NCBI GenBank assembly: GCA_002169255.1
Contig: NHLU01000014.1
Span: forward strand, 1 to 22,995
Direction of reading: 5' to 3'
Length of the DNA: 22,995 nucleotides
Origin: Candidatus Pelagibacter sp. TMED275
Lineage (GTDB): Bacteria > Pseudomonadota > Alphaproteobacteria > Pelagibacterales > Pelagibacteraceae
Shown here: piece after piece, positions 1 through 22,995 of the stretch
How positions within the stretch are numbered: position 1 is the first letter of the stretch
Layout: every line of letters begins with the position of its first letter
The notes under the pieces: model-generated
Told to the model about the DNA's origin: nothing
The model's database searches: none
Seen by the model: the letters and a program-made list of their open reading frames with translations, nothing else
Program-made: the position numbers and the translations under genes

Positions 1-64
1 GATCTAAAGACTAGAGAAATGATAAGTTTAAAAGACAGAACCCGGCTTACATTTCATCTGGCAA
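1..64 (+). ncRNA. rnpB: RNase P RNA, 3' end (partial)
   Basis: RNase P RNA is the catalytic RNA that removes 5' leaders from tRNA precursors. The block at 35-50 (ACAGAACCCGGCTTAC) matches the near-universal distal P4 strand found just before the 3' end of bacterial RNase P RNAs. It is preceded by CTAGAGAAATGA (11-22), which resembles the conserved CTAGATGAATGA of the E. coli molecule, at about the expected distance. The following TTTCATCTGGC (52-62) would be the 3' strand of closing helix P1, but its partner lies upstream of the window. The 3' end is estimated from this alignment; the gene body is outside the window. No convincing intrinsic terminator follows. Confidence 0.88.
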
Positions 65-201
65 AAAATCTTTAAAATGTTTCTGCTTTGATTCATATAA
101 GTTAACTAAATGTTCTAATATTTTTATTTGATGTTTATCTAATTGTTAAAAAATTTAAATAAATTGTTAATAAAGTATTAATTAATAATGAAAATCATCA
201 A

Positions 202-230
202 TTGACACTGTAACTAAAAACCCATAATAT
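202..230 (+). promoter_or_regulatory. Sigma-70 promoter of the mraZ/dcw operon
   Basis: A perfect -35 hexamer TTGACA lies at 202-207 and a -10 hexamer TAATAT (5 of 6 to consensus) at 225-230, separated by exactly 17 bases. Transcription would start near 236-238, giving a leader of about 30 bases before the mraZ start at 270. It is the best promoter-like sequence I noticed and stands immediately before the first gene of a long collinear run, so it probably drives the whole dcw cluster. The rest of the spacer after rnpB (65-201) is AT-rich and shows nothing else I can name. Confidence 0.8.
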
Positions 231-245
231 CCCATATATTCCCAA
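221..245 (-). promoter_or_regulatory. Putative MraZ operator: three TGGG boxes with 10-bp period
   Basis: CCCA occurs at 221, 231 and 241, so three CCCAN boxes are separated by exactly 5 bases; the minus strand reads TTGGG, ATGGG, ATGGG. In E. coli, MraZ binds three TGGGN direct repeats with 5-base spacers upstream of its own gene, and the spacing here is the same. The boxes flank and overlap the -10 element (225-230) and the predicted start site, the right position for repression. Box identity is seen; binding by the downstream mraZ product is inferred. Confidence 0.8.
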
Positions 246-269
246 ATATGGAATTTATGAGAAAAAAAT

Positions 270-728
270 ATGTTTTTATCAACTTTCGAGAACAGGATAG
301 ACAAAAAAGGGAGGGTTTCAGTGCCTGCTAGTTTTAGATCATATCTTTCAAATCTAGGTTATAACGGAATTTTTTGCTATCCGTCATTTAACAATCCTTC
401 AATTGAAGCATGGACGCAAGATAGAATTGAAAAAATTTCAGATACAATTGATGGTTTAAATCCTTTTGAAGAAAAAAGGGATTTTTTTGCAACATCAATT
501 CTTTCAGAAAGTATTAATTTACAATTTGATAACGAGGGAAGAATCTCTATTTCACAAAAATTATTAAATCATGCTAGAATTAAACACAGTATGCTGTTCG
601 TTGGTCAGGGAAAAACATTCCAAATATGGGAGCCTAAAACTTTTGAAAAATTTAGGATGAATGCTAGAAAAAAATCAAACATAAATAGAGCAAATCTTAG
701 ATGGGAGCAAAAACTTAACAAACAATAG
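270..728 (+). CDS. mraZ: Transcriptional regulator MraZ
   Basis: MraZ is a DNA-binding protein of the SpoVT-AbrB fold, usually the first gene of dcw clusters; in E. coli it represses its own operon. The 152-residue product has the family's two tandem half-domains, each with a DxxxR signature: DKKGR at residues 11-15 and DNEGR at 87-91. The opening [15 protein letters not shown] is typical of full-length family members and supports this ATG. Length is normal for alphaproteobacterial MraZ. The gene sits about 30 bases below the predicted transcription start, behind three boxes that fit its known target. It is followed after 11 bases by ftsZ, so MraZ probably controls FtsZ supply directly. Confidence 0.95.
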
Positions 729-734
729 AGGGAG
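729..734 (+). promoter_or_regulatory. Strong Shine-Dalgarno of ftsZ
   Basis: AGGGAG, within a purine-only run from 727 to 740, lies 5 bases before the ftsZ ATG at 740. Most other starts in the window have no recognisable Shine-Dalgarno or rely on overlap with the upstream gene, so this site stands out. It fixes the ftsZ start and suggests translation independent of coupling to mraZ. Confidence 0.75.
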
Positions 735-739
735 AGAGA

Positions 740-2212
740 ATGACAATAAACTTTAAAGCACCAGAAATAAAAGAATTAAAACCGAGAATCTTAGTTTTAG
801 GAGTTGGGGGCGCAGGAGGTAACGCCATAAATAAAATGGTAGAGTCTGGTCTTCAAGGTGTTGAATTTTTATCTATAAATACTGATGCACAAGATTTAAA
901 GTTAAGTAAAGCTAATACAAAAATTCAAATAGGATTAAATTTAACAAAAGGTCTTGGTGCTGGAGCAAAGTTAGATATTGGCCAAGCTGCTGCAGATGAG
1001 TCCTTAAACGAGATAGTAAATTGCTTGCAAGGCGCAAATATGGTTTTTATAACAGCTGGAATGGGTGGAGGTACAGGAACTGGTGCAGCACATGTCATAG
1101 CTAGAGCGGCAAAAGAATTAAATATTCTAACAGTTGGGGTTACAACTTTACCTTTCTTGTATGAAGGGCCCTCTAGAATGAGAAGAGCCCAACAAGGATT
1201 AGAAGAGTTAAGAAAACATGTTGATACAATTATTGTAATTCCAAATCAAAATCTTTTCAAAATTGCAACTGAACAAACCACATTTGAGGAGTCTTTTGAT
1301 TTATCTAATGATGTTTTAATGCATGGAGTTCAAAGCATTACTGATTTAATGGTAAGACCTGGTTTAATAAATTTAGATTTTGCTGATGTTGAAACTGTAA
1401 TGAGCTCAATGGGTAAAGCAATGATGGGAACTGGAGAAGCAGATGGTGAAGGAAGAGCTACTAAAGCAGCTGAGATGGCCATAAGTAATCCACTAATAGA
1501 TGATTATACATTGCAAGGTGCCAAAGGATTACTAGTAAACATTACTGGAGGACCAGATCTAAAATTATTTGAAGTAGATGAAGCTGTTAATAAAGTTAGA
1601 GCGGAAGTGGATCCAGAGGCTGAACTTATTATTGGAGCTATTACTGATCCTGCATTAGAAGGAAGCATGAGAGTATCTATTGTAGCGACAGCATTAGATG
1701 GACAACAACCAGAGGCAAAATCTGTTATAAATATGGTACATAGAATTCAAAGTAGAAACACTGGATATTCAGATTTTACCAATCCTAATCCTGCACAATC
1801 ATTTAATTTTAATTCAGCCAATATTCAAAATACAGTAACGAGTGGTGCAAACGCATTAAAATTAGAGGAACCAATTACTGACGATATTTCAAACCCCCAA
1901 GATTTTTCATCAAATGATAATAATATTAGTAATGAAATTCCTAATGATCAAACAGTAAGCACTGAGGAGATTAAAAACGAAGAAAGCATTATCATTGATG
2001 AAGTAAATAATGATGTTACTCCCTCAAACGGATTAGAAAATTTTAATCTTGAAGAAGAAAGTCCTAATTTATTTAACTCAGAAAATAATGAAGAATTAAA
2101 TTTGAGTGAAGATGATAATAAATCAGAATTTTCATCATTTGATACTAAGACAGAAGATAATGATGAGGATGAATTAGAAATCCCAGCATTTTTGAGAAGA
2201 CAAAAAAATTAA
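740..2212 (+). CDS. ftsZ: Cell division GTPase FtsZ
   Basis: FtsZ is the tubulin-like GTPase that polymerises into the Z ring and recruits the divisome. In the 490-residue product the nucleotide-binding region begins with GVGGAGGNA at 21-29, the tubulin signature GGGTGTG is at 109-115, and the T7 loop with catalytic acidic residues is [11 protein letters not shown] at 211-221. The globular core ends near residue 325. It is followed by a long acidic Asn/Asp/Glu/Ser-rich linker to about 474 and the conserved C-terminal peptide [13 protein letters not shown], the docking site for FtsA and other partners. The start is set by a strong Shine-Dalgarno. The odd feature is location: ftsZ lies between mraZ and rsmH, whereas in most bacteria it follows ftsA. 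Nothing looks truncated, so this is probably the main functional copy. Confidence 0.98.
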
Positions 2213-2230
2213 TGTTCTTCAAAAAAATAA

Positions 2231-3235
2231 ATGAATGCCACCATATTACTGGAAAAGAAAAAGCATTTTCCAGTACTGCTTAATGAAATTATAAGCATTA
2301 TTTCCCCTCAATATGGTGGCACATTTCTTGATTGTACATTTGGGCAAGGCGGTTATACAAAAAAAATATTAGAGTTTAAAAATACAAATGTAATAGGTAT
2401 TGATAGAGATAGTGATACTTTTAAAGCTGCAAAAGAAATCAAAAAGAAATATTCAAAAAGATTTGAATTCTATAATAAAAAATTTAGTGAAATAGGTGAA
2501 TTAGATGGCAAAAATAAGTTTAGATGTATAATTTTTGATCTTGGTTTTTCATTAAATCAAATTAAAGATGAAACAAAGGGTTTGTCATTTAATTCGAAAG
2601 GTAAACTTAATATGTCTATGGGTTTAAACTCGTTTACGGCTAACGAAGCAATACATTCTTTAGATTTAAATGATTTAAATAAAATTTTTAAGTTTTTTGG
2701 CGAAGATAAGGAAGCTAGAATAATTGCAAAAAAAATAATTAATTTAAGACAAAAGCAAAATATTAATAATGAGGATTTAATAAACATTATTGAAAGTTCA
2801 AAAAAGAAAAATTTTAAAAAAAATAAATCTACAAAAATTTTCCAATCTCTAAGAATGTTTGTGAACCAAGAAATAAGTGAGTTAATCAAAGGACTTATCG
2901 CTGCAACAAAATTACTAGAACCTGGTGGAATGATAATTGTAGTTTCTTTTCATTCTATAGAAGATAGAATTGTAAAATTCTTTTTTAATGATTTATCGAG
3001 TGGAAAGAATTTATCTAGATACTTACCAGGAAATTCATCTGAAAAAAAAATTTTTGAAATTCAAAAAAAAAAGCCTATCATTCCATCAAACAAGGAAATA
3101 AATACAAATCCAGCCTCAAGATCAGCTAAATTAAGATATGCAATAAAATTAACTGATATAGACGACTATGAGCTAAAATTTTACAATAAATTTAAATTTT
3201 TATTAGATATTGAAAATTTATCAAAAAAAATATGA
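2231..3235 (+). CDS. rsmH: 16S rRNA (cytosine-1402 N4)-methyltransferase RsmH
   Basis: RsmH (older name MraW) uses S-adenosylmethionine to methylate N4 of C1402 in the 16S rRNA decoding centre. The 334-residue protein has HFPVLLNEII near the N-terminus (12-21), a SAM-binding motif TFLDCTFGQGGYT at 31-43, and the hallmark SFHSIEDRIVK and NPASRSAKLR segments in the C-terminal third. Length is close to the family norm (about 310 residues) plus a few Lys-rich insertions. It follows ftsZ by 18 bases with no clear Shine-Dalgarno, and its stop overlaps the ftsL start as ATGA. In most dcw clusters rsmH directly follows mraZ; here ftsZ has been placed between them. Confidence 0.96.
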   Translation: MNATILLEKKKHFPVLLNEIISIISPQYGGTFLDCTFGQGGYTKKILEFKNTNVIGIDRDSDTFKAAKEIKKKYSKRFEFYNKKFSEIGELDGKNKFRCIIFDLGFSLNQIKDETKGLSFNSKGKLNMSMGLNSFTANEAIHSLDLNDLNKIFKFFGEDKEARIIAKKIINLRQKQNINNEDLINIIESSKKKNFKKNKSTKIFQSLRMFVNQEISELIKGLIAATKLLEPGGMIIVVSFHSIEDRIVKFFFNDLSSGKNLSRYLPGNSSEKKIFEIQKKKPIIPSNKEINTNPASRSAKLRYAIKLTDIDDYELKFYNKFKFLLDIENLSKKI

Positions 3236-3525
3236 GAAAAATAATATTAACATCCTTAATTTTTTTTTTGATAATATTTACAACATTCACAAAAAACGCC
3301 ACTAAAGAGTTAGAAAAAGAAATTTTTTTAACAAAAGAAAATATTGGAAAATTAAAAAATCAATATGATTTAGTTCTTTTGGATTATAATTATTTAAGTT
3401 CACCAAAAAGATTAACCGAGTTTCAAGAGGAGTGGTTTGATGATCAATTATTTAACACCAGGATAGACAATATAAATAAAATTTTTTTCTTTAATGGAAG
3501 AGTTTTATTTCAGTCAGAAAAATAG
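3232..3525 (+). CDS. ftsL: Cell division protein FtsL
   Basis: FtsL is a small bitopic membrane protein that forms a complex with FtsQ and FtsB and helps activate FtsWI at the septum. The 97-residue product has one N-terminal membrane segment (about residues 4-20), then a charged helical region (22-50) able to form a coiled coil. The segment YLSSPKRLTEF (about 54-64) is the best conserved part of alphaproteobacterial FtsL. Family sequence conservation is low, so identification rests on this motif, topology and position between rsmH and ftsI. The start overlaps the rsmH stop by 4 bases (ATGA), indicating translational coupling. Confidence 0.88.
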   Translation: MRKIILTSLIFFLIIFTTFTKNATKELEKEIFLTKENIGKLKNQYDLVLLDYNYLSSPKRLTEFQEEWFDDQLFNTRIDNINKIFFFNGRVLFQSEK

Positions 3526-3526
3526 A

Positions 3527-5215
3527 ATGATCAAAGAAAAAAAAGAAATATTAGTACTTGAAAAATATGAAAATGATTTTTCTTTTAAAGAAAACAAATC
3601 TAATTTAAATATTTCATTTAATAGAATTGCTTTTATCTTTTTTATATTACTTTTAGTTTGTACAATTTACTCCATAAAAATTATTTATTTAGGAATACAA
3701 AAACCAAGTATACTCAAAAGTAGAAATTTGGAAATCATAGAAAATTTCAGAGCAGATATTCTTGATAGAAATAATAATTTTATTGCAAAAACTGTTAATA
3801 CTACAATTGTAGGTATAAACCCTAATTTAATAATAAATGATGATAAATTATTACTAAATTTAAAAATAATTTTTCCCAACAAGGATTTTGTCGACATTAA
3901 AAAAAAAATAAAAAAAAAAAAATATTTTAGATTAGAAAAAAAAATTTCAAGCAATGAAAAAGAGCAATTAAAATTGCTAGGAGATAAAGCAATTGTTTTT
4001 GAAGATCAAATATCAAGAATTTATCCAAATGAAAATTTATATAGCCACATATTGGGCCAAATAGATGATTCAAACAATGGTATATCTGGTATTGAGAAAA
4101 AATTTGATTTTAATCTTAAATCAGAAAAAAACCCCATTAAGCTAACAGTAGATACAGAAATTCAATTTTTAATTAGACAAGAACTATTTAGATTTAATAA
4201 AATTTTTAAAAGTATTGGAAGTGGTGCAATACTTATGGATGTAAATAATGGAGAAATTTTATCTCTTGTTTCATTGCCAGATTTTAATTTAAATGAACGA
4301 GTATCCATAACAGATAAAAATTATATCAATAGAATTACAAAAGGAGTTTATGAGTTAGGCTCAGTATTTAAATTGTTTACAGTAGCAGCTGCTTTAAACG
4401 AAAAAATTGTAGAACCAGAAACTGAGTTTTTGAATTTGGAAAAAGAAATTGAATGTGACGGTAGACCAATAAGAGAATATGATAATGAGATTCCTAAAAA
4501 TCTTACAGTAGAGCAAATTTTAATCAGATCTGGAAACATAGGATCTGTGAGAATTGGCCAAATGTTAGGCGCTGAGAAACTAAAAAGTTTTTACAGTAAA
4601 ATTGGTATATTAAATCGGATAGATTTTGATATAGATGAAACGGGAACACCTATTCCGTTTGTATGGGGAAAATGTAAACTTGCGACAGTTTCATTTGGTC
4701 ACGGTATTACAACTACTCCTCTTCAACTTGCAAAAGCATATTCTATTATATCTAATGGAGGATTTGATATTCAGCCGACTTTAATTAAAAAGGATAGTAA
4801 GCAAAATTTAAAAAAAAACCAAATTCTTTCAGAAAATATATCAATCAAAATAAATAAGATTTTAAGAAAAATTGTATCAACATCAGATGGTACGGCGGGA
4901 CTAGCAGATGTAAAAGGTTATGAGGTGGCAGGCAAAACTGGTACAGCTCAAAAAGTGGTTAATGGTAAATACTCTAGATTAAAAATTAATACTTTTGCAT
5001 CTGTATTTCCATCATCTGATCCAAGATTTGCATTAATTGTTTTAATCGATGAACCTAAAACCTCAGAAGATTATATTTATAATTATCGAAATAAATCTGG
5101 CTCTTTTAAGGGCACTCCATTCAATACAGCCGGTTGGACAGCAGTAGAAATTGTAGCAAATATTATTGAAAAAATTGGGCCTATTTTAGCCACAAAATAT
5201 ATGGATGTTGAGTAA
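3527..5215 (+). CDS. ftsI: Septal peptidoglycan transpeptidase FtsI (PBP3)
   Basis: FtsI is the class B penicillin-binding protein that cross-links septal peptidoglycan, working with FtsW. Counted from the ATG at 3527 the protein has 562 residues: a cytoplasmic tail, one membrane segment (about 33-53), a dimerisation domain starting with RADILDRN (75-82), and a transpeptidase domain. The active-site motifs are SVFK (279-282, nucleophile S279), SGN (335-337) and KTG (470-472). An in-frame ATG at 3494 would add 11 residues but overlap ftsL by 32 bases. I prefer 3527, one base after the ftsL stop, though neither start has a Shine-Dalgarno. A run of 13 adenines at 3910-3922 encodes part of a Lys-rich stretch. 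The end overlaps the next gene by 11 bases. Confidence 0.95.
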   Translation: MIKEKKEILVLEKYENDFSFKENKSNLNISFNRIAFIFFILLLVCTIYSIKIIYLGIQKPSILKSRNLEIIENFRADILDRNNNFIAKTVNTTIVGINPNLIINDDKLLLNLKIIFPNKDFVDIKKKIKKKKYFRLEKKISSNEKEQLKLLGDKAIVFEDQISRIYPNENLYSHILGQIDDSNNGISGIEKKFDFNLKSEKNPIKLTVDTEIQFLIRQELFRFNKIFKSIGSGAILMDVNNGEILSLVSLPDFNLNERVSITDKNYINRITKGVYELGSVFKLFTVAAALNEKIVEPETEFLNLEKEIECDGRPIREYDNEIPKNLTVEQILIRSGNIGSVRIGQMLGAEKLKSFYSKIGILNRIDFDIDETGTPIPFVWGKCKLATVSFGHGITTTPLQLAKAYSIISNGGFDIQPTLIKKDSKQNLKKNQILSENISIKINKILRKIVSTSDGTAGLADVKGYEVAGKTGTAQKVVNGKYSRLKINTFASVFPSSDPRFALIVLIDEPKTSEDYIYNYRNKSGSFKGTPFNTAGWTAVEIVANIIEKIGPILATKYMDVE

Positions 5216-8072
5216 TCTAATCATGTTAGTAGGCGATTATTTTAACAATATTAAACCAGAGTATAAAAAGCATTTTTTCTCTGGCTTATCATTTAATAGT
5301 TTGAAATGTAAAAAAGGAAATATTTTTTTTGCAATCAAAGGCACAATCAGAGATGGAAACAAATATATAGCACAAGCTATAAAGAATGGTTGCAAAGTAA
5401 TAGTACATGAAAAAGAATTTGAAGGAATTAAAAAAAATATACTCTATATAAAGTCAAAAAATGTAAGGAAAGATCTATCTTTAGTTTCTTTTAAATATTT
5501 TAAAAGTAGGCCAAAAAATATAGTGGCAGTCACTGGAACAAATGGAAAGTCATCAATCGCAGAGTTTTATTATCAAATTTTGACAATGAGTAAAAAAAAA
5601 GTTGCGTCAATTGGGACACTGGGAGTAAAAATAAAAAAAAATTTACTTAAAGTAAATAATACCACCCTAGATCCAATAACATTGGCTAAGTATTTTAAAC
5701 TACTTGATACTATGAAAATAAATAATATAATTTTAGAAGCATCCAGCCATGGACTTCATCAGAATAGACTTGATGGTATAAAATTTAATGGGGGCATATT
5801 TACTAATCTATCACATGACCATTTAGATTATCATAAATCGTTCAATAATTATTTAAATTCAAAATTGTATCTTTTTAAAAAATTATTAAAAAATAATTCT
5901 TTTATAATTACTAATTCAAAAATACCCCAACATAAAAAATTAAAGAAAATTGCCACAAAGAGAAAACTAAAAATGATTTCTTTATTTAATGATAAAGGAA
6001 TTGAAATTTTAGACCATAATTATATTGGTGAAAAGCAATCTGTAAGTTTTGCTTATCAAAAAAAAAATTATTCATTTACTACAAATCTAATTGGTAAAAT
6101 TCAAATTACTAACTTATTAATGGCAAGTATTGCAGCACAAAAAAGTAAAATTAAATTTAACAAAATTGTTGATAATTTTCAAAATATGAAACCAGTTAAT
6201 GGAAGATTTGAAAAAATTGGTAATCTTAAAAATAAGAGCCTTGTGATATTAGATTATGCTCATACTCCAGATGCATTAAAAGTATGTTTAGAAAATATTG
6301 AAGATCAGTTTAGTGGAAGAAATATTAAAATTGTTTTTGGATGTGGTGGTGACAGGGATAAGCTCAAGAGATCAAAGATGGGAACAATAGCTGCAAAATT
6401 TTGTAAAAAAATATATATCACAAATGACAATCCTAGAAATGAAAATGCAAAAAAAATAAGAATTAATATTAAAAATGGTATTTTTGATAAAAAAAAAATT
6501 CATGAAATCCCAGATAGAGAAGATGCAATAAAACTAGCAATTAAGGATCTTAAAACCTCAGAAATACTCATTGTTGCTGGTAAGGGGCATGAAAATACAC
6601 AAATTATAAAAAATAAAGTTAATATATTATCTGATAGGTCAATAATTAAAAAAAGTATTCTGAAAAAAAATAAATTGTTATCAAAAAATTTAAAAAAAAA
6701 TATTTTAAAAGAGCAAAGTGGTAATTTAAATTTAAGATTTAATATAGGCACTTTTGAAGGTGTGATAGACTCAAGAAAAGTTAAAAAAAACGATATTTTT
6801 TTTGCTATTAAAGGAGAAAATAAAGATGGTAATAATTATATAAATGATGCATTTAAAAACGGTGCACAGATTGTAGTTGGAAGTAAAAAATTATCAAATA
6901 ATTTAAAAAAATATATAAAAGTAAATTCACCATTAAAGTTTTTAGAAAAAATATCTACTGTAAATAGAGAATGTTCAGACTCAGTTTTTATAGGTATTAC
7001 AGGCAGTTGTGGAAAAACTTCATTAAAGGAAATGACAAAGGAAGTATTTCGGGATTTTACCAACATATCAGCGTCAAAAAAATCATATAATAATAAATAT
7101 GGCGTTCCATTGAGTTTGTTTAATTTTAACAATAATCACAATTATGGCATTTATGAAATAGGAATGGATAAAAAAGGTGAGATTGATAATTTATCTAAAG
7201 TTGTTCAACCCAATATTGGTGTTATAACAAATATATCTTATGCGCACGCAAAAAATTTTAAGAGCATAAAACAAATCGCATTAGCTAAATCTGAAATTAT
7301 TCATAACATTAAAAAAAATGGAAAAATAATATTAAATTTAGATGATAAGTTTTTTTTTCTTCATAAAAAAATTGCTTTAAAAAAAAATTTAAAGATTTTT
7401 TCATTTAGTGAAAAAAATAAAAATGCTGATGTTTATTTAAAAAAAATTACTAAAAATAAAAATATTTATAAATTACATATAAATGTTAACGGTATAAAAA
7501 AATATTTTTTTATTAATAGTAAAAATGAAAATTTAATTAAAAATATCCTTGCATGTCTTGCAATTATATTGGCAACTAATAATATTAAATATCTAAAATA
7601 TAACATGTTTAAAAAAATTAATTTTGTACAGGGAAGAGGTGATATTAGTAAAGTTAAGGTAGATAAAAAAATTATAAATTTAATTGACGAAAGCTATAAC
7701 TCAAACCCTCTCTCATTAAAGTCAGCAATTAATCATTTTAAGTTATTAAATATTGATAATGATAGAAAATATATTTTATTAGGAGACATGCTCGAATTAG
7801 GCTCCCATTCGAAAAAATTACATAATCAATTAATAAAAGTGATAAATTTAACTTCAATCAAAAATATTTTTGTCATAGGAACTCAAATGAGCAAAATTTT
7901 CAAAAAATTAAAGGTTAATAAAAAAGGTTTAGTTCTGAATAATATTTCACAAATTAATGATTTAATTATTCATAATATGAGGAATAATGATTATTTAATG
8001 ATTAAAGGATCCAATGCTACCGGTTTAAATAAGTATGTAAATCAATTAAAAGGTTCTAAAGGTGTTTTATAA
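5205..8072 (+). CDS. murE/murF: Fused MurE-MurF: UDP-MurNAc-tripeptide synthetase and D-Ala-D-Ala adding ligase
   Basis: One uninterrupted 955-residue frame holds two complete Mur ligases. Residues 1 to about 485 are MurE, which adds meso-diaminopimelate to UDP-MurNAc-L-Ala-D-Glu: P-loop GTNGKS at 111-116, SHDHLDYH at 203-210, probable carbamylated Lys K220, and the DNPR motif at 408-411 that marks meso-DAP rather than lysine specificity. Residues about 505-955 are MurF, which adds D-Ala-D-Ala: P-loop GSCGKTS at 600-606, AKSE at 694-697, DESYNSNP at 828-835 and LLGDMLELG at 858-866. A Lys/Leu/Asn-rich linker (about 482-505) joins them. Fused MurE-MurF proteins are known in some bacteria, but separate genes are the rule. 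The start overlaps ftsI by 11 bases; an in-frame ATG at 5223 is an alternative. The GTG start of mraY overlaps its end by 11 bases. Confidence 0.95.
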   Translation: MLSNLIMLVGDYFNNIKPEYKKHFFSGLSFNSLKCKKGNIFFAIKGTIRDGNKYIAQAIKNGCKVIVHEKEFEGIKKNILYIKSKNVRKDLSLVSFKYFKSRPKNIVAVTGTNGKSSIAEFYYQILTMSKKKVASIGTLGVKIKKNLLKVNNTTLDPITLAKYFKLLDTMKINNIILEASSHGLHQNRLDGIKFNGGIFTNLSHDHLDYHKSFNNYLNSKLYLFKKLLKNNSFIITNSKIPQHKKLKKIATKRKLKMISLFNDKGIEILDHNYIGEKQSVSFAYQKKNYSFTTNLIGKIQITNLLMASIAAQKSKIKFNKIVDNFQNMKPVNGRFEKIGNLKNKSLVILDYAHTPDALKVCLENIEDQFSGRNIKIVFGCGGDRDKLKRSKMGTIAAKFCKKIYITNDNPRNENAKKIRINIKNGIFDKKKIHEIPDREDAIKLAIKDLKTSEILIVAGKGHENTQIIKNKVNILSDRSIIKKSILKKNKLLSKNLKKNILKEQSGNLNLRFNIGTFEGVIDSRKVKKNDIFFAIKGENKDGNNYINDAFKNGAQIVVGSKKLSNNLKKYIKVNSPLKFLEKISTVNRECSDSVFIGITGSCGKTSLKEMTKEVFRDFTNISASKKSYNNKYGVPLSLFNFNNNHNYGIYEIGMDKKGEIDNLSKVVQPNIGVITNISYAHAKNFKSIKQIALAKSEIIHNIKKNGKIILNLDDKFFFLHKKIALKKNLKIFSFSEKNKNADVYLKKITKNKNIYKLHINVNGIKKYFFINSKNENLIKNILACLAIILATNNIKYLKYNMFKKINFVQGRGDISKVKVDKKIINLIDESYNSNPLSLKSAINHFKLLNIDNDRKYILLGDMLELGSHSKKLHNQLIKVINLTSIKNIFVIGTQMSKIFKKLKVNKKGLVLNNISQINDLIIHNMRNNDYLMIKGSNATGLNKYVNQLKGSKGVL

Positions 8073-14898: not shown

Positions 14899-15816
14899 AT
14901 GAAAAAAATTTTAATTTTGTCTGGAGGTTATTCTAAAGAAAAAGAAATAAGTAGAGCATCAGCAAAGTCTATTTATAAAACATTAAAAAATAAATATAAA
15001 ATTTTAGTATGTGAACCAGACTCTAATTTTGTAAAAAAAATTAAAAAATTTAAACCAGATGTAGTTTACAACTCTCTTCATGGAAGATTTGGAGAGGATG
15101 GATATATTCAAGTATTATTGGAAAATTTAAAAGTAAAATACACCCATTCAGGTGTTAATTCATCTTCAATCGCAATGGATAAAGAGATTTCAAAAAGAAT
15201 ATTTATTAAAAATAATATTAGAACCCCTACATTTCTTAAATTAAGAAACTTTGATCTCACAAGTAACAAAAATAAACTTATTAAAAAGATTAAAAAAAAA
15301 TTAGGTTTTCCTGTTGTTATTAAACCAGTTAATGAAGGATCAAGTGTGGATGTTAATATCTGTAATAAAAAAAATATTATTAAAAATTTGAAAAATTTAT
15401 CCTCGTATAAAGAAGTTTTAGTGGAAAAATATATTGGAGGACGAGAGATTCAGGTAGCAATAATGGGTAATAAAAAACTTGGGGCAATAGAATTATCACC
15501 TAAGAGAAAGTTTTATGACTATAAGGCGAAGTATAATATTAAGGCTGGCACAAAGCATATTATTCCAGTGGATTTAAGTAAAAAAAAAATGGATGAGGTT
15601 CTTAATTTGGCATTTAAAGCTCATAAACTTATAGGATGTAGAGGCATTACAAGATCTGACTTTAAATATTTAAATGGAAAATTTTATCTTTTAGAAATAA
15701 ACACACAGCCAGGAATGACAAAACTATCACTAGTTCCCGAGATTGCTGCATATAGAGGTATAAGCTTTATGAGCTTACTCCAATGGATGATAAATGATGC
15801 TTCAATTAATAGATAA
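14899..15816 (+). CDS. ddl: D-alanine--D-alanine ligase
   Basis: Ddl joins two D-alanines with ATP to make the dipeptide that the MurF half of MurE-MurF adds to the precursor. The 305-residue product has the ATP-grasp layout: the N-terminal LSGGYSKEKEIS (7-18) with probable catalytic Glu E15, HGRFGEDG (61-68), KPVNEGSS (142-149), the omega-loop region FYDYKAKY (205-212), and the metal-binding EINTQPGMT (266-274). It starts immediately after the murB stop with no intervening base. Length is normal for the DdlB type. Its last 23 bases overlap the ftsQ start. Confidence 0.95.
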   Translation: MKKILILSGGYSKEKEISRASAKSIYKTLKNKYKILVCEPDSNFVKKIKKFKPDVVYNSLHGRFGEDGYIQVLLENLKVKYTHSGVNSSSIAMDKEISKRIFIKNNIRTPTFLKLRNFDLTSNKNKLIKKIKKKLGFPVVIKPVNEGSSVDVNICNKKNIIKNLKNLSSYKEVLVEKYIGGREIQVAIMGNKKLGAIELSPKRKFYDYKAKYNIKAGTKHIIPVDLSKKKMDEVLNLAFKAHKLIGCRGITRSDFKYLNGKFYLLEINTQPGMTKLSLVPEIAAYRGISFMSLLQWMINDASINR

Positions 15817-16492
15817 TAAAAAAAACCTTTTTTTTTATTTTTTTATTTTTTTATTTTTATCTACAATTAAATTAAATAGTAGTTATTTAGGTAATTTATT
15901 TTCATTGAGAATAAGTGATATTAGTGTTGCAGGTCTCTCTGAGGAAAAAAATAGAATAATTAAGGAAAAATTAAATATTTTTCAAAATAGAAATATTCTA
16001 TTTCTGGAAGAAGATGAATTTAAAATCATTTTAGGGCAATTTAATATTATAGATTCTTTTGAAATTAAAAAAATTTATCCAAATAAAATTAATTTAGAGA
16101 TAAAAAAAACTAATTTTATTGGATCAACATATTATAAAAATTCTAAGTATATTATTGGCCAAAATAAGAAACTAATACCCTTTGATAATTTAAAGCATAA
16201 CGAATTAGAATTACCATTTGTTTTTACTAGTGGAAATTATGAAAGATTTGTTCATTTAAAAAAAATAATTGATGAAACAAATTTTGATTTTCATAAAATT
16301 GAATCATTTTATTATTTTCAAATCGGTAGATGGGATTTAAAAACTAAATCTGGGCAAATTATAAAGTTACCTGTTAAGAATATTAAAGAGGCAATCAATA
16401 GAGCTCATATAATGATTAATGATAAAAAAATTGATAAATTTAATTTATTAGATATGAGAATGCAAAAATATATAATTACTTCTAATGAGTAA
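15794..16492 (+). CDS. ftsQ: Cell division protein FtsQ
   Basis: FtsQ is a bitopic inner-membrane protein that scaffolds FtsL and FtsB in the divisome. The 232-residue product has one membrane segment (about residues 11-27, encoded by long T-runs) and a periplasmic POTRA domain (about 39-107) beginning ISDISVAGLS and ending KINLEIKKT, then the FtsQ beta region. It is shorter than many alphaproteobacterial FtsQ proteins, chiefly because the cytoplasmic tail is only about ten residues. Sequence conservation is weak, so the POTRA pattern and the ddl-ftsQ-ftsA order carry the call. The ATG at 15794 overlaps ddl by 23 bases; the adjacent ATG at 15797 is equally possible. Confidence 0.88.
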   Translation: MMLQLIDNKKNLFFYFFIFLFLSTIKLNSSYLGNLFSLRISDISVAGLSEEKNRIIKEKLNIFQNRNILFLEEDEFKIILGQFNIIDSFEIKKIYPNKINLEIKKTNFIGSTYYKNSKYIIGQNKKLIPFDNLKHNELELPFVFTSGNYERFVHLKKIIDETNFDFHKIESFYYFQIGRWDLKTKSGQIIKLPVKNIKEAINRAHIMINDKKIDKFNLLDMRMQKYIITSNE

Positions 16493-17678
16493 GAATTATA
16501 ATATTTTTTTTGATTTGGGTTCTACCAAAATAAGAGCTGCAGCTTTTAGTAAAAATTCAAATGACGAGCAAATTTCATTTGAAAAAAAATGCACGTCTTC
16601 ATTTAAAAAAGATAATCTTGATATTAAAAATCTAAATAAAAGTTTGGAAATATTAATTTTAGACTTAGAAAAAAAAACAAATGAATATATTGAAAGAGCA
16701 AATATTTTGATAGATTCTGTTGACTCAATTAATTTAACATTATCAATTTCAAAAAAGGGAGATAGTAAAAAACTTTCAATGAGTGATATTGAATTACTAG
16801 CGCATAATGCAAAACAAGAAATTATAAAATATAATAAGGATATCGAAATTTTACACATCTTGATTACTAATTTTAAAATAGATGGAAAAGATTACTCTAG
16901 TATCCAAATTGATAAAGAGTATCAATTATTATCAGTTGATATTTTATTTATTTGCTTTCCAAAAAATATTTTAGATGAAATAAGTCACTTATTTAAAAAA
17001 AATCATATTTTTATAGAAAATTTTATTGGATCAAGTTATGCAAAAACTTTTAGTTATAAAGATAAGTTTACAACATTTCAAAATTTGGTCTTTATTGAAT
17101 TAGGTTATGAGAAAACATCAATCGTTTCCTATAAAAATGAATATCTTGAATCACTTAATATAATTCCAATTGGTGGAAACCATATAACTAAAGATATATC
17201 AAAAATTTTAAAGATTTCTGACGAAGAGTCAGAAAAAATTAAAAAAGAATTTAATAATCAAGAATTATTTTCAGAAAATTTAAATATACAAAAAAAATTA
17301 TTAAATAATCTCAAGCAAAATAATCTTGATCATGAAGAATTTTCTTTAATGATAAAAGAAATTATTTTTGCAAGGATTGATGAGATTTTAAATTTAAGTT
17401 TAAAGTTAATAGATAGTATTAAAATGAATAAACTGAATGAAAAATATAAGATAATTTTAATTGGATCTGGGGCAAAAATATTTGAGAATAATTCTATAAG
17501 CATTACTCAAAAAGATAATTTACTTGATGAATTTGAGTTTTTTAGAGAGAATCCTGAAATAATCTGTAAGACAGGTGAAAATTTACTCTTTAAAAAAAAT
17601 TTACAGGAAGTTTTTATTGTTCCAAAACAAGAGGATGTCCCAGGTTTTTTTGTAAGATTTTTCAACCTTTTTAAGTAA
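16485..17678 (+). CDS. ftsA: Cell division protein FtsA (divergent)
   Basis: FtsA is the actin-like protein that tethers FtsZ filaments to the membrane and recruits later divisome proteins. The 397-residue product starts with a phosphate-1 motif FDLGSTKIRAAAF (9-21). It has the conserved PIGGNHITKDIS (228-239), an adenosine-type motif LIGSGAKI (325-332), and ends with the amphipathic membrane-targeting helix PGFFVRFFNLFK (386-397). The phosphate-2 motif is degenerate: residues 204-213 read IELGYEKTSI where FtsA proteins usually have something like DIGGGTTDI. Overall similarity looks low, but order and the terminal helix support FtsA. It overlaps ftsQ by 8 bases. ftsZ, its normal downstream neighbour, is absent here. 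Confidence 0.88.
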   Translation: MSKNYNIFFDLGSTKIRAAAFSKNSNDEQISFEKKCTSSFKKDNLDIKNLNKSLEILILDLEKKTNEYIERANILIDSVDSINLTLSISKKGDSKKLSMSDIELLAHNAKQEIIKYNKDIEILHILITNFKIDGKDYSSIQIDKEYQLLSVDILFICFPKNILDEISHLFKKNHIFIENFIGSSYAKTFSYKDKFTTFQNLVFIELGYEKTSIVSYKNEYLESLNIIPIGGNHITKDISKILKISDEESEKIKKEFNNQELFSENLNIQKKLLNNLKQNNLDHEEFSLMIKEIIFARIDEILNLSLKLIDSIKMNKLNEKYKIILIGSGAKIFENNSISITQKDNLLDEFEFFRENPEIICKTGENLLFKKNLQEVFIVPKQEDVPGFFVRFFNLFK

Positions 17679-17710
17679 TTTTTTTGTATTTTCTTGTAAC
17701 ATTAGTTGTC

Positions 17711-17739
17711 TTTAGTAGCAAAAAGTAACTAACTATAAA
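17711..17739 (+). promoter_or_regulatory. Weak candidate promoter for lpxC
   Basis: The 67-base gap between ftsA and lpxC holds TATAAA (17734-17739, 5 of 6 to the -10 consensus), with a poor -35 match TTTAGT (17711-17716) at 17 bases. If used, transcription would begin almost at the lpxC ATG (17746), giving a leaderless message. AT-rich sequence makes chance matches likely, so this is tentative. Confidence 0.25.
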
Positions 17740-17745
17740 GTCATA

Positions 17746-18666
17746 ATGTCAGTTTTAAATCAAAAAACTATAAAAGATGTGATAAACTTTAAAGGAGTTG
17801 GTCTTCATACTGGGAAATCAGTTAACTTAAAATTATTACCAGCTAAACCAAATTCAGGAATTGTTTTTAAGAGAACTGATTTGAAAAAAAATAATATTAT
17901 TCTCCCAGGAATTTATAATGTCTCAAACGCTACATTATGTACTACGATTTCAAACGAATATGGAAATTCAGTTATGACAATTGAGCATCTGATGGCAGCA
18001 ATTTTAGGAAAAGGAATAGACAATTTATTAATAGAAATAGACTCAATAGAAGTTCCAATTTTAGATGGATCAGCAAGAGAATTTGTTAAAGAAATTGATG
18101 TTAAAGGTTTGGAATTGAGTGATACTCCTATAAAAATTATTAAAATTGAAAAAAAAGTCACTATAGAAGATGGTAAAAAATTTATTTCAATTGAACCTAA
18201 TAATTTAAGTTTAGACATAGATTTTGAAATAAAATTTAACAATCCAATTATATCAACACAAAGAAGAAAAGTTAAAGTCTATGAGGATAATTTAGATGAT
18301 ATTTATGACTCAAGAACTTTTTGTTTGCACGAAGACATTAAAAAATTAAAAGAAATGAATTTAGGGCTTGGAGGGACTTTAGACAACGCAATAGTAGTTA
18401 AAGATGATAAAATATTAAATAAAAATGGATTAAGAAATGATAAAGAATTTGTTAATCATAAAATTTTAGATTGTATGGGAGATTTATATCTATCGGGATA
18501 TAAAATGTTAGCAAAGGTTATATGTTCTCAAGGCGGTCATTATCTGACAAATCAATTAATGAGAAAAACTTTTGATGACAAAAAAAACTTCTCTATATTT
18601 GAAATCAAAGAAAAAAACGTCCCACACTCATTTATTTCAAGAAATCAGCTTAAATCTATTGCTTAA
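17746..18666 (+). CDS. lpxC: UDP-3-O-acyl-N-acetylglucosamine deacetylase LpxC
   Basis: LpxC is the zinc-dependent cytoplasmic enzyme of the committed step of lipid A synthesis, so this cell makes or at least starts lipid A. The 306-residue protein carries GVGLHTGKSV (17-26), EHLMAA with E80 and zinc ligand H81, the second zinc site in NHKILD (H238 and D242), and catalytic H265 in GGHYLTN. Length is normal for the family. It follows ftsA by 67 bases, one of the larger gaps on this strand, and has no clear Shine-Dalgarno. In other alphaproteobacteria lpxC usually follows ftsZ; here ftsA is its direct neighbour. Confidence 0.97.
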   Translation: MSVLNQKTIKDVINFKGVGLHTGKSVNLKLLPAKPNSGIVFKRTDLKKNNIILPGIYNVSNATLCTTISNEYGNSVMTIEHLMAAILGKGIDNLLIEIDSIEVPILDGSAREFVKEIDVKGLELSDTPIKIIKIEKKVTIEDGKKFISIEPNNLSLDIDFEIKFNNPIISTQRRKVKVYEDNLDDIYDSRTFCLHEDIKKLKEMNLGLGGTLDNAIVVKDDKILNKNGLRNDKEFVNHKILDCMGDLYLSGYKMLAKVICSQGGHYLTNQLMRKTFDDKKNFSIFEIKEKNVPHSFISRNQLKSIA

Positions 18667-19546: not shown

Positions 19547-21570
19547 TGAAAATTGAAAACTTAAAAAAAAAATATCTGGAAAAAGTTAAATTATTAAACA
19601 AATATAATAAATTTTATTATGAGGATAACTCCCCATTAATTAATGATAGTGATTATGATATTTTAAAGAGAGAAATACTTGATTTAGAGATAAAAAACTC
19701 GTTTTTAAAAAGCAAAGACTCTCCCTCAAAAATTGTTGGTTTTAAACCATCAAAAAATTTTGAAAAGGTTAATCATAAGGTACCAATGTTGTCTTTATCA
19801 AATGCATTTGATAAGAAAGATTTAGAAAACTTTCAAAAGAAAATAATTAATTTTTTAAATATAAAAGAAGATAATAAAGGTTTTGAATTTAGCACGGAAC
19901 CAAAGATAGATGGAATTTCAGCGTCCTTATTATATAAAAAAGGTAAATTTGTTAAAGGATTGTCAAGAGGTGATGGCAAGACAGGTGAGGATATAACAAA
20001 AAATTTATTTACAATTAGTGATATACCCAAAATAATTAAAGATAAAAATTTTCCAAAAGAAATAGATATAAGAGGTGAAGTATTTATAAAAAAAGATGAT
20101 TTTAAATTATTAAGTGAAAAATTTGCCAATCCCAGAAATGCAGCCTCTGGATCATTAAGACAAAAAAATCCAGAAGAAACTAAAAAAATTCCATTAAAAT
20201 TTATTGCTTATACTTATGGGTATAGTGAAAATATGAACATTAAAACTCAAACAGATTTTTTAAAAAATCTTGGAGTTTGGGGTTTTAAGACTAATAAATT
20301 TAATAAGAAAATTTCAGGAATTGATAATTTAATTAAAAATTATCGTTATCTTGAAGAAAAAAGAAATGAAATTGATTTTGATATTGATGGTGTTGTATAC
20401 AAAATAGATAATTTTGAATTACAAGCGAGGTTAGGTTTTGTCGCTAATGCTCCAAGATGGGCAATAGCTCATAAATTCTCTGCTAATAGCTCAATTTCAA
20501 AAATTAAAAATATCGAAATCCAAATTGGTAGAACGGGTGCTTTAACGCCTGTTGCAAAAATAAATCCTGTTAATATTGGCGGTGTGATGGTGTCAAATGC
20601 AACATTACATAATGAAGATGAGATTAATAGAAAAGATATTAGAGTAGGTGACGTTGTAACAGTCGAACGTGCAGGTGATGTAATTCCTCATGTAATTGCT
20701 GCAGATTTATCTAAAAGGGGCAAAAATTCAAAAAAATTCTTATTTCCAAAAAATTGTCCCTCATGTGGATCTCCGACAAAAAAAGATTTTAATTCTATAA
20801 CTAAAAAATTTGATGCTGTGAGAAGATGCACCAATAAAGACTTTAGATGTGAAAAAATTGTAATAGAAAAATTAAAACACTTTGTTTCTAAAGATGCTTT
20901 TTCTATAGAAGGTTTGGGAAAAAAAATAATCGAAAATTTCTGGAGTATTAAATTGATAAGATATCCGCAAGATATATTTAATTTGAATTATAAGAAAATA
21001 GAAAAGTTAGAGGGTTGGGGAAAATTATCAGTTAATAATCTTAAATATTCTATAGACCAAGCAAGAAATATATCTTTAAATAAATTTATTTTTTCATTAG
21101 GTATAAGACATATAGGACAAGAAAATGCAAAATTAATTTCTAAAACTTTAAAAAAAGCTGAAAATTTTTTTAATCTTTCATTAAATTTTAAAGAAGAGGC
21201 ATTATCAAATATAGATGGAATAGGACAAGTCCAAATAAATTCATTGAAAGAATTTTTTTTAGAAAAAGAAAATAAAAAAATTCTATTTGAATTAAGAAAA
21301 GTATTAAAAATATTAGACAATTTAGAAGAAAAGGCTGATGGCAGTCTAAAAAATAAAAATTTTATGTTCACAGGAAAACTTGAAGAAATGAGTAGAGCTG
21401 AAGCAAAATCATTAATTGAAAAAAATTCGGGAAAAATTTTAAGTAATGTAAATAAAAAATTAGACTTTTTAATTATAGGCAAAAAACCCACAACAAAAAA
21501 AATTTTAAAAGCTAAAGAGCTGAATGTAAAAGTAATCAGCCAAGCTGAGTTTATAAAATTATTAAATTAA
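19546..21570 (+). CDS. ligA: NAD-dependent DNA ligase LigA
   Basis: LigA seals nicks in duplex DNA using NAD+ and is essential for replication and repair. The 674-residue product has the full bacterial architecture: the N-terminal Ia NAD-binding domain with YYEDNSPLINDSDYD (24-38); the adenylation domain with nucleophile K120 in EPKIDG, plus DIDGVVYKID (279-288); the OB fold with IGRTGALTP (327-335); a four-cysteine zinc finger (C404, C407, C428, C435); helix-hairpin-helix repeats such as NIDGIGQVQINSL (555-567); and a C-terminal BRCT domain (about 598-674). The start forms TAATG with bamD. Its final 9 bases overlap the convergent minus-strand gene. Confidence 0.98.
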   Translation: MKIENLKKKYLEKVKLLNKYNKFYYEDNSPLINDSDYDILKREILDLEIKNSFLKSKDSPSKIVGFKPSKNFEKVNHKVPMLSLSNAFDKKDLENFQKKIINFLNIKEDNKGFEFSTEPKIDGISASLLYKKGKFVKGLSRGDGKTGEDITKNLFTISDIPKIIKDKNFPKEIDIRGEVFIKKDDFKLLSEKFANPRNAASGSLRQKNPEETKKIPLKFIAYTYGYSENMNIKTQTDFLKNLGVWGFKTNKFNKKISGIDNLIKNYRYLEEKRNEIDFDIDGVVYKIDNFELQARLGFVANAPRWAIAHKFSANSSISKIKNIEIQIGRTGALTPVAKINPVNIGGVMVSNATLHNEDEINRKDIRVGDVVTVERAGDVIPHVIAADLSKRGKNSKKFLFPKNCPSCGSPTKKDFNSITKKFDAVRRCTNKDFRCEKIVIEKLKHFVSKDAFSIEGLGKKIIENFWSIKLIRYPQDIFNLNYKKIEKLEGWGKLSVNNLKYSIDQARNISLNKFIFSLGIRHIGQENAKLISKTLKKAENFFNLSLNFKEEALSNIDGIGQVQINSLKEFFLEKENKKILFELRKVLKILDNLEEKADGSLKNKNFMFTGKLEEMSRAEAKSLIEKNSGKILSNVNKKLDFLIIGKKPTTKKILKAKELNVKVISQAEFIKLLN

Positions 21571-22995
21571 TTGAGCTAACCATTTTCTTTCAGATATGTT
21601 CAGGTATTTTGAAAGTTTAGAGTAAATACTTAAATGATACATAAATAGATAATCTTTTTCTTTTTTATTTAGTAGCTTATAATTTATCAATTCTTTTTCC
21701 AAAGGTACGTAAGTTAAATTTTCAAAAAATATTTTATTATTATTTTTTTTTACAAAAACAAGATTCTCAATTCTCATTCCATATTTTCCTTCTTTGTAGT
21801 ATCCAGGTTCATTACTTAAAATCATTCCTTCTCTAATTTTTACTTTATTATATTTAGAGATTGATTGTGGTCCCTCGTGAACATTGAGAAAGAAGCCAAC
21901 TCCATGACCAGTTCCATGGCTATAGTTAAGACCAGATTGTCTTAGACTTTTTCTTGCCAAAAAATCTATTTTTCTACCATTTGTATACTTTTTTAAATTT
22001 GCAGATACTACAGCAATATGACCCTTTAAAACTTTGGTATAGATATTTTTAATATTATTATTTTGTTTACTGAAACATAAAGTTCTTGTTACGTCAGTTG
22101 TGCCGTACTTATATTGACCACCTGAATCGCAAAGAAATAAATCTTTTTTATTTATTGTTCTATTTGATTTTTTTGTAGCACGATAATGAACTATTGCACC
22201 ATTAGGACCCGACCCAGCTATGGTATTAAAGCTTGGATACACATATTCTTTATTTAAGCTTCTAAATTTTTCAAGTTTTTTTTCAGCACTTATCTCCGTA
22301 ATTTTTTTTTTATTTACATTTTTTATCCAATAAATAAATTTTGTTAAAGCAATACCATCAAGAATATGAGAACTAATCATACCTTGAATCTCTTTTTTAT
22401 TCTTTATTGATTTTAATTCATATGTTGGATCAATTTTGTCTACTATGTTTAATTTTGATGTAATAATATCTTCATTAAAAATTGAGCAGCTTAAGTTATC
22501 AATTATAATATTTCCTTGATCTAGTTTGTTTAAAATTTCTTTTAACTTATCAGTATGAAAAACTTGATGAGGTTTTAATTTCTTACTATTAATAATATTT
22601 TTAGCTTTTCCATGATCAGTAAAAAAATAAATTTTTTTTTTACTTGTTAATAGCATTCTACAATTTGGAATTGGACTATTTGGATTATCATATCCACGAA
22701 TATTTAATATCCACGCAGTATTTTCTGGTGCAGTTACAAATAAGTATTTTGATTTTTTTTTTTTGAGTATTTTACATAATCTATTTATTTTTGATTGGTG
22801 TGTTTCTCCAGCTATTCTATTAGTTAAATTAAAAAAAGGTTTACTTTTTTCTTTTGTAAATTTATTAACAATTAAATCTTCATCTATGTTTTTTAAATTA
22901 ATATTGTTTCCAAAATAGGTATTTAAAATTTTTTTCGTAAAGAGTTTTGGGTTAATTCCTAAAGTTAATTTTTTTTTGTAAATATTTTTTGGAAA
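21562..22995 (-). CDS. Xaa-Pro aminopeptidase, three-domain M24B type (N-terminus beyond window)
   Basis: This metallopeptidase removes N-terminal residues that precede proline. Its 477 visible residues end at 21562 and stay open to the window edge. An internal ATG at 22656 could be mistaken for the start, but the frame continues upstream for 113 codons without a stop and encodes the expected APENTAWILNIRGYDNPNSP segment (about 22699-22758). Metal ligands of the pita-bread domain are visible: DSGGQYKYGTTDVTRTL (two Asp), HGTGHGVG (His), NEPGYY (Glu) and MRIENLV (Glu). Family members have about 560-600 residues, so roughly 100 N-terminal residues are missing. The C-terminal part after ENLTYVPLE resembles the conserved tail of the eukaryotic-like APP1 group. 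It converges on ligA with a 9-base overlap. Confidence 0.93.
   Translation of the reverse strand, partial: FPKNIYKKKLTLGINPKLFTKKILNTYFGNNINLKNIDEDLIVNKFTKEKSKPFFNLTNRIAGETHQSKINRLCKILKKKKSKYLFVTAPENTAWILNIRGYDNPNSPIPNCRMLLTSKKKIYFFTDHGKAKNIINSKKLKPHQVFHTDKLKEILNKLDQGNIIIDNLSCSIFNEDIITSKLNIVDKIDPTYELKSIKNKKEIQGMISSHILDGIALTKFIYWIKNVNKKKITEISAEKKLEKFRSLNKEYVYPSFNTIAGSGPNGAIVHYRATKKSNRTINKKDLFLCDSGGQYKYGTTDVTRTLCFSKQNNNIKNIYTKVLKGHIAVVSANLKKYTNGRKIDFLARKSLRQSGLNYSHGTGHGVGFFLNVHEGPQSISKYNKVKIREGMILSNEPGYYKEGKYGMRIENLVFVKKNNNKIFFENLTYVPLEKELINYKLLNKKEKDYLFMYHLSIYSKLSKYLNISERKWLAQLI

Follow-up and report, generated by a model that had tools for sequence, protein, structure and literature searches.

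In alphaproteobacteria the division and cell wall (dcw) cluster follows the canonical order mraZ-rsmH-ftsL-ftsI ... ddl-ftsQ-ftsA-ftsZ-lpxC. The ATPase (IIA/IIB) lobe of FtsA binds FtsZ in model species, and the MraZ box of Escherichia coli is built from TGGG repeats spaced by 10. In the Mollicutes, the corresponding cluster of Mycoplasma genitalium reads mraZ-mraW-MG_223-ftsZ; according to a report on it, loss of MraZ raises the expression of mraW and ftsZ as well as the amount of FtsZ protein (PMC8475190).

The window, by which we mean the whole 22,995-nucleotide stretch of contig NHLU01000014.1 (Candidatus Pelagibacter sp. TMED275) that was analysed, resembles the canonical alphaproteobacterial cluster in its genes, their strand, the rsmH-to-lpxC order and the short spacing. 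It differs in that ftsZ separates mraZ from rsmH and is absent between ftsA and lpxC, and in that murE and murF are fused. The features of the locus are:

270..728, + strand: mraZ, encoding the dcw repressor (NCBIfam NF001477, 183 bits, cut-off 162)
740..2212, + strand: ftsZ, relocated to second place (NCBIfam TIGR00065, 390 bits, cut-off 295; Pfam PF00091 and PF12327)
2171..2209, + strand: FtsZ C-terminal peptide, residues 478-490 (TIGR03483 match at 470-490, below cut-off)
2231..3235, + strand: rsmH (mraW), the neighbour of mraZ in the usual order (NCBIfam TIGR00006, 247 bits, cut-off 154)
15794..16492, + strand: ftsQ (PF08478, 26 bits, gathering score 23)
16485..17678, + strand: ftsA, full length (397 aa), divergent (PF14450, position and match to 1e4f)
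17679..17745, no strand: former place of ftsZ in the canonical order, now 67 non-coding bases from ftsA to lpxC (ORF map)
17746..18666, + strand: lpxC (NCBIfam TIGR00325, 278 bits, cut-off 187)

The open reading frames reproduce the tandem mraZ-ftsZ-rsmH that had been predicted, with gaps of 11 bases (729-739) and 18 bases (2213-2230), and the ORF map likewise agrees with the claim that no ftsZ lies between ftsA and lpxC. Hence rsmH does not directly follow mraZ, nor ftsZ ftsA. The window FtsZ is a full-length family match with both the GTPase (PF00091) and the C-terminal (PF12327) domain. Downstream of rsmH come ftsL, ftsI, the murE-murF fusion, mraY, murD, ftsW, murG, murC, murB, ddl, ftsQ, ftsA, lpxC, bamD and ligA; the dcw genes other than ftsZ are collinear on one strand, as had been stated of the rest of the cluster. 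Of these genes, ftsL is named by its position (no Pfam match), and genes that were not scanned are named from position and translation. The fused murE-murF gene (5205-8072) encodes 955 aa, and separate ORFs are found in the SAR11 loci L054 and L058. A 364-aa ORF at 21562-22656 (- strand) has, by eye, the look of an aminopeptidase P type protein. No Rfam family at gathering score and no tRNA was found in the window.

Gene order in SAR11 and in the rest of the class

In a five-gene tree the window joins AG-359-P07 (G007), its FtsZ shares 87% identity with a protein labelled Candidatus Pelagibacter sp., and its grouping with named Pelagibacteraceae genomes places it in SAR11 (Pelagibacterales). 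An RsmH scan of a genome collection described as covering 84,980 species returned seven genome loci; every one is titled uncultured Pelagibacteraceae and has the order mraZ-ftsZ-rsmH. From the order of G007, 147 genomes were drawn, with an ftsZ match in 133 and none in 14; each of the 133 holds exactly one ftsZ, as does each of seven genomes in a separate search (7/7), two genomes being shared between the searches. The surroundings of ftsZ were read in 136 SAR11 genomes, consisting of 131 of the 133 and five more from the RsmH scan (137 loci, one genome appearing twice). G116 and G119 have ftsZ matches but were excluded from this count, G004 entered through the RsmH scan, and ftsZ in L027, L033, L036 and L039 was detected by phmmer. 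In all 136 genomes ftsZ directly follows mraZ; rsmH comes next in 121, the other 15 ending at a contig end, and there is no exception. In 21 of 22 SAR11 genomes checked, lpxC is matched on the same strand as ftsZ, its match beginning 14.7-16.3 kb further downstream; in the 22nd (G029) the two matches lie on different contigs.

Misassembly of the window junctions, or a binning artefact, is thereby refuted: 136 other genomes share the mraZ-ftsZ junction, 121 of them the junction of ftsZ with rsmH as well, nothing was found in support of an artefact, and its probability is negligible. The check for a second ftsZ, run in the relatives, returned the single copy per genome given above. The arrangement is not an oddity of one genome; the original prediction had itself named the same order in all relatives as the outcome that would turn it into a clade trait. 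The position of ftsZ second behind mraZ is a fixed trait of the SAR11 order in the genomes read.

Across the class we sampled 123 genomes; ftsZ was matched in 118, two of these being SAR11 (G007, G008). We read 90 of the 116 non-SAR11 loci and set apart L208 and L218, both with an upstream relocation of ftsZ, leaving 88. Directly upstream of ftsZ lies ftsA in 76 of the 88; two loci are too short to tell, and ten are without detectable ftsA upstream. The upstream ORF was scanned in eight of these ten. Three lie beside folC, a desaturase and prephenate dehydrogenase; in L202 the ORF is FtsQ-like, and the usual order may hold there, with ftsA having escaped detection; L150 has a TonB-receptor-like match upstream of ftsZ and lpxC downstream; and two ORFs gave little or no match. 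In the last of the eight (class genome G206, locus L168) ftsZ directly follows ddl, and neither ftsQ nor ftsA is matched there. An mraZ adjoining ftsZ was detected in none of the 88 loci. By coordinates, four genomes of the G182 order have the usual ftsA-ftsZ-lpxC, and one class genome (G227) carries two ftsZ above cut-off.

Promoter, putative operator and ribosome site

Three elements of the window bear on the expression of ftsZ:

202..230, + strand: sigma-70-like mraZ promoter, -35 TTGACA at 202-207, 17-base spacer, -10 TAATAT at 225-230 (10/12 match)
221..244, + strand: MraZ-box-like operator, three CCCA repeats with a 10-base period (repeat scan)
729..738, + strand: ftsZ Shine-Dalgarno AGGGAGAGAG (duplex energy -7.8 kcal/mol)

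The -10 hexamer of the mraZ promoter sits exactly between CCCA repeats 1 and 2. Of the 134 SAR11 loci that have upstream DNA, 125 carry all three repeats, eight carry two and one carries none; among 2,680 shuffled controls, three repeats occur in none and two in one. Promoter-like sites show no excess overall in the scanned region (15 versus a shuffle mean of 17.7). Among 125 distinct SAR11 upstream regions with the triple repeat, 107 have the -10 box of a promoter matching at least 9/12 at the same box position and 51 have one a repeat further on, each of 35 other offsets being found in at most six. Repeated boxes at the mraZ promoter form the sequence pattern of a MraZ-regulated operon, and the CCCA repeats are putative MraZ sites by their likeness to the E. 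coli box.

Since the -10 box is buried in this putative operator, MraZ would repress itself and ftsZ together, RNA polymerase starting at a single promoter and ftsZ being the first structural gene of an mraZ-led operon. FtsZ supply would then be tied to the MraZ feedback loop and not to a dedicated promoter close to ftsA. Entry of ftsZ into this feedback operon is the likeliest effect of the relocation, and the MraZ-dependent ftsZ of M. genitalium offers a precedent. Relatives that keep the usual order can be expected to carry operators ahead of mraZ as well, and only the membership of ftsZ would be new. The conserved promoter within a MraZ-box-like operator thus lends weight to the prediction that ftsZ may be more directly regulated. 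No terminator-like site was found in 1-3300. A promoter for ftsZ may also lie inside mraZ, where one promoter-like match (551-580, 10/12) is within chance. As cell-cycle input at SAR11 mraZ, CtrA and GANTC sites were rejected because they are not enriched upstream of the gene: TTAA-N7-TTAA occurs in 8 of 132 regions (Markov mean 12.2) and GANTC in 37 of 132 (Markov mean 37.3).

Among 18 starts in the window ftsZ has the strongest Shine-Dalgarno, the runner-up reaching -3.8 and ftsA +3.2 kcal/mol. An ftsZ start could be identified at 91 of the 137 SAR11 loci, and all 91 scored sites are below -4 kcal/mol. A class-wide scoring took in 49 SAR11, 68 class and seven G160-order loci; under its rule, by which the best-scoring candidate start counts and strong sites are therefore favoured, the class loci, most of them with the usual gene order, have a median of -7.7, with 94% of the 68 below -4. 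The ribosome site being equally strong in the class, it came along with the gene, and we reject the idea that it is an adaptation to the new place. The dose of FtsZ relative to the other dcw proteins would be set mainly by this strong inherited site. The predicted excess of FtsZ over FtsA fits the ribosome sites of the two genes, but not its proposed cause: as relatives with the usual order have a strong ftsZ site as well, FtsZ above FtsA need not stem from the move.

FtsA in SAR11

The window FtsA scores below cut-off against TIGR01174 (90 bits, cut-off 175.85) and SHS2_FTSA (19.5 bits, cut-off 25.4) and above it against Pfam PF14450 (49.8 bits, cut-off 31.8). It aligns over most of its length with FtsA structures (1e4f, 4a2a, 7q6d and others), residues 8-338 matching the solved Thermotoga FtsA (1e4f) with an E value of 1.3e-10. 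In 44 of 112 drawn SAR11 genomes with an FtsA match, the protein is only half-length (about 235 aa), as exemplified by L270:1080-1778 (+) and L271:133-843 (-), with 232-236 aa. These proteins contain subdomains IA and IC and correspond to the IA/IC lobe in FtsA structures. Unlike those structures, they are without the IIA/IIB lobe, which forms part of the nucleotide cleft and to which the FtsZ tail binds; when they are aligned with the FtsA of the window and of G096, about 170 columns are absent. No Pfam FtsA family reaches its cut-off in the half-length form (SHS2_FTSA scores 14.5 versus 25.4 in the L270 protein); P0345 and P0270 have weak ParB-CE matches (22.4 and 15.1 versus 23), and P0241 has no match. 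G029 was not counted as short, its FtsA match being the other lobe (profile 202-314); it has no match in the FtsA survey of drawn genomes and stands among the full-length genomes in the tree. At G033:C1:193796-194455 a half-length FtsA frame is interrupted by three TAG and one TAA and is perhaps decayed or frameshifted.

The tail peptide of SAR11 FtsZ is intact: the motif [LF]EIP[AS]FLR[RK]Q is present in 22/22 SAR11 FtsZs listed, and the window FtsZ ends in the conserved peptide as well. The relocation would have separated the FtsA-FtsZ gene pair, part of SAR11 later losing the FtsZ-binding lobe of FtsA. In a reading that we offer tentatively, the FtsA-FtsZ axis has been dismantled in SAR11, ftsZ having entered the MraZ feedback operon and FtsA having been cut in a large part of the order. 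The resulting mini-FtsA, comprising IA, IC and a C-terminal tail of amphipathic look, could bind neither nucleotide nor, at the known site, the FtsZ tail; it would act as a lobe-I adaptor that links the late divisome via IC, and another partner of the intact tail would hold FtsZ at the membrane. The half-length protein raises the question of which parts of FtsA division needs.

Origin of the relocation and relation to known systems

SAR11 FtsZ forms one clade (100/98) among alphaproteobacterial FtsZs in a tree of 91 representatives (L216 and L249 left out). This is the picture of vertical descent, and the tree gives no sign of a foreign origin or an outside donor. The relocation is thus genuine and ancient, was passed on vertically and is fixed among the SAR11 genomes read: ftsZ moved from between ftsA and lpxC to the mraZ/rsmH gap before SAR11 diversified and has stayed there.

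The same gap is used in a second AT-rich order. In the G160 order 23 of 32 genomes have an ftsZ match, and mraZ is followed by ftsZ and then rsmH at all 21 loci with both neighbours in reach (L228-L248), with rsmH on the same strand in 20 and on the opposite strand in L240; in L245 the rsmH match begins 517 bases after ftsZ. The contigs of L249 and L250 start inside ftsZ, with rsmH after it, and one more locus is a fragment of a counted genome. G269, the sole genome of its order in the collection, reads mraZ-rsmH-ftsZ-ftsL-ftsI (L218:414-5001). No ftsZ match lies between ftsA and lpxC in 12/12 G160-order genomes tested or in G269. Two or three CCCA repeats precede mraZ in 18 of 22 G160-order loci with upstream DNA, and none in the single G269 locus with sufficient upstream DNA. 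As a separate observation, the 200 bases upstream of mraZ in the G160 order (L208, L228-L248) contain GANTC in 21 of 21 distinct regions (Markov mean 6.8) and TTAA-N7-TTAA in five of 21 (Markov mean 1.0).

The move could accordingly be older than SAR11 and shared with the G160 order, with G269 as a step on the way and the gene order as a rare genomic marker for the sister group of SAR11. The identical insertion point argues for such an origin, and FtsZ alone is compatible with it, a constrained tree joining SAR11 and the G160 order being 3.3 log units better (p-AU 0.536). Against it, rpoB places the G160 order nearer G269 (79/83) and the G182 order (75/85) than SAR11 and disfavours the SAR11 grouping without rejecting it (p-AU 0.174); rpoB and FtsZ together reject it narrowly (p-AU 0.041, or 0.164 with G269 included; G246 left out, and H_G307, H_G312 and H_G332 with rpoB only). 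Deep branches are without support under four-state recoding, and mean FtsZ identity is lower between SAR11 and the G160 order (47%) than between SAR11 and the rest of the class (58%). GC is 0.27-0.32 at the G160-order loci and the G182 locus, AT-rich as in SAR11, so that tree joins among these orders may be artefacts. On balance a shared origin appears possible but falls clearly short of an even chance. The single transposition of the original prediction stands for SAR11, but across the class there may have been several such events.

How and why ftsZ settled beside mraZ admits further readings. A second ftsZ, newly arisen or acquired next to mraZ, followed by loss of the copy behind ftsA, would give the same end state as a cut-and-paste move, and the two ftsZ of G227 show that such a state exists in the class; yet the window leaves no room for a remnant of more than 67 bases between ftsA and lpxC, each SAR11 genome with a match has one ftsZ, and the FtsZ tree names no donor, which makes this route doubtful, if of some weight. 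Alternatively, an intracluster rearrangement during genome reduction was simply kept as a frozen accident, the ribosome site setting FtsZ and the place being without regulatory meaning. In keeping with this, the strong Shine-Dalgarno is common in the class, and up to ten class loci are without detectable ftsA upstream of ftsZ, at least three of them beside unrelated genes, which indicates that ftsZ is able to leave its site and not settle at any one position. The absence of exceptions in 136 SAR11 genomes speaks against an accident, as does the use of the same gap in the G160 order, which fits selection or shared descent. We regard a frozen accident as unlikely. Conservation of the gene order could nonetheless be inertia, and the evidence may fit inertia and selection for membership in the MraZ operon alike. 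The explanation that we consider probable combines an early move, MraZ-fed ftsZ expression, an inherited ribosome site and the separation of FtsA from FtsZ.

SAR11 bacteria are among the most abundant cell groups in the ocean. Transcripts of ftsZ have been used as a marine growth index, and a significant day-night change has been reported for Pelagibacterales (PMC13349992). If ftsZ is read from the MraZ operon, its transcript level in SAR11 may differ in meaning from that in bacteria in which ftsZ has promoters of its own. The place of SAR11 among the alphaproteobacteria is disputed because of AT bias (PMC8879329); the order of ftsZ is a character independent of base composition. Among the literature matches listed, we recognised no account of the ftsZ order or of FtsA in SAR11.

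Of the systems compared here, the G160 order is alike in its mraZ-ftsZ-rsmH order and its MraZ-box-like repeats upstream. It is unlike SAR11 in its more divergent FtsZ and MraZ, and its FtsA is full length (frames of 400-414 aa) in 12/12 genomes tested and above the family cut-off in 11. In the Mollicutes, ftsZ likewise belongs to an mraZ-led cluster and is reported to be repressed by MraZ (PMC8475190); that cluster has lost the cell-wall genes in between, and its ftsZ still stands after mraW. In SAR11, by comparison, the cluster is complete, and it is ftsZ that has jumped forward.
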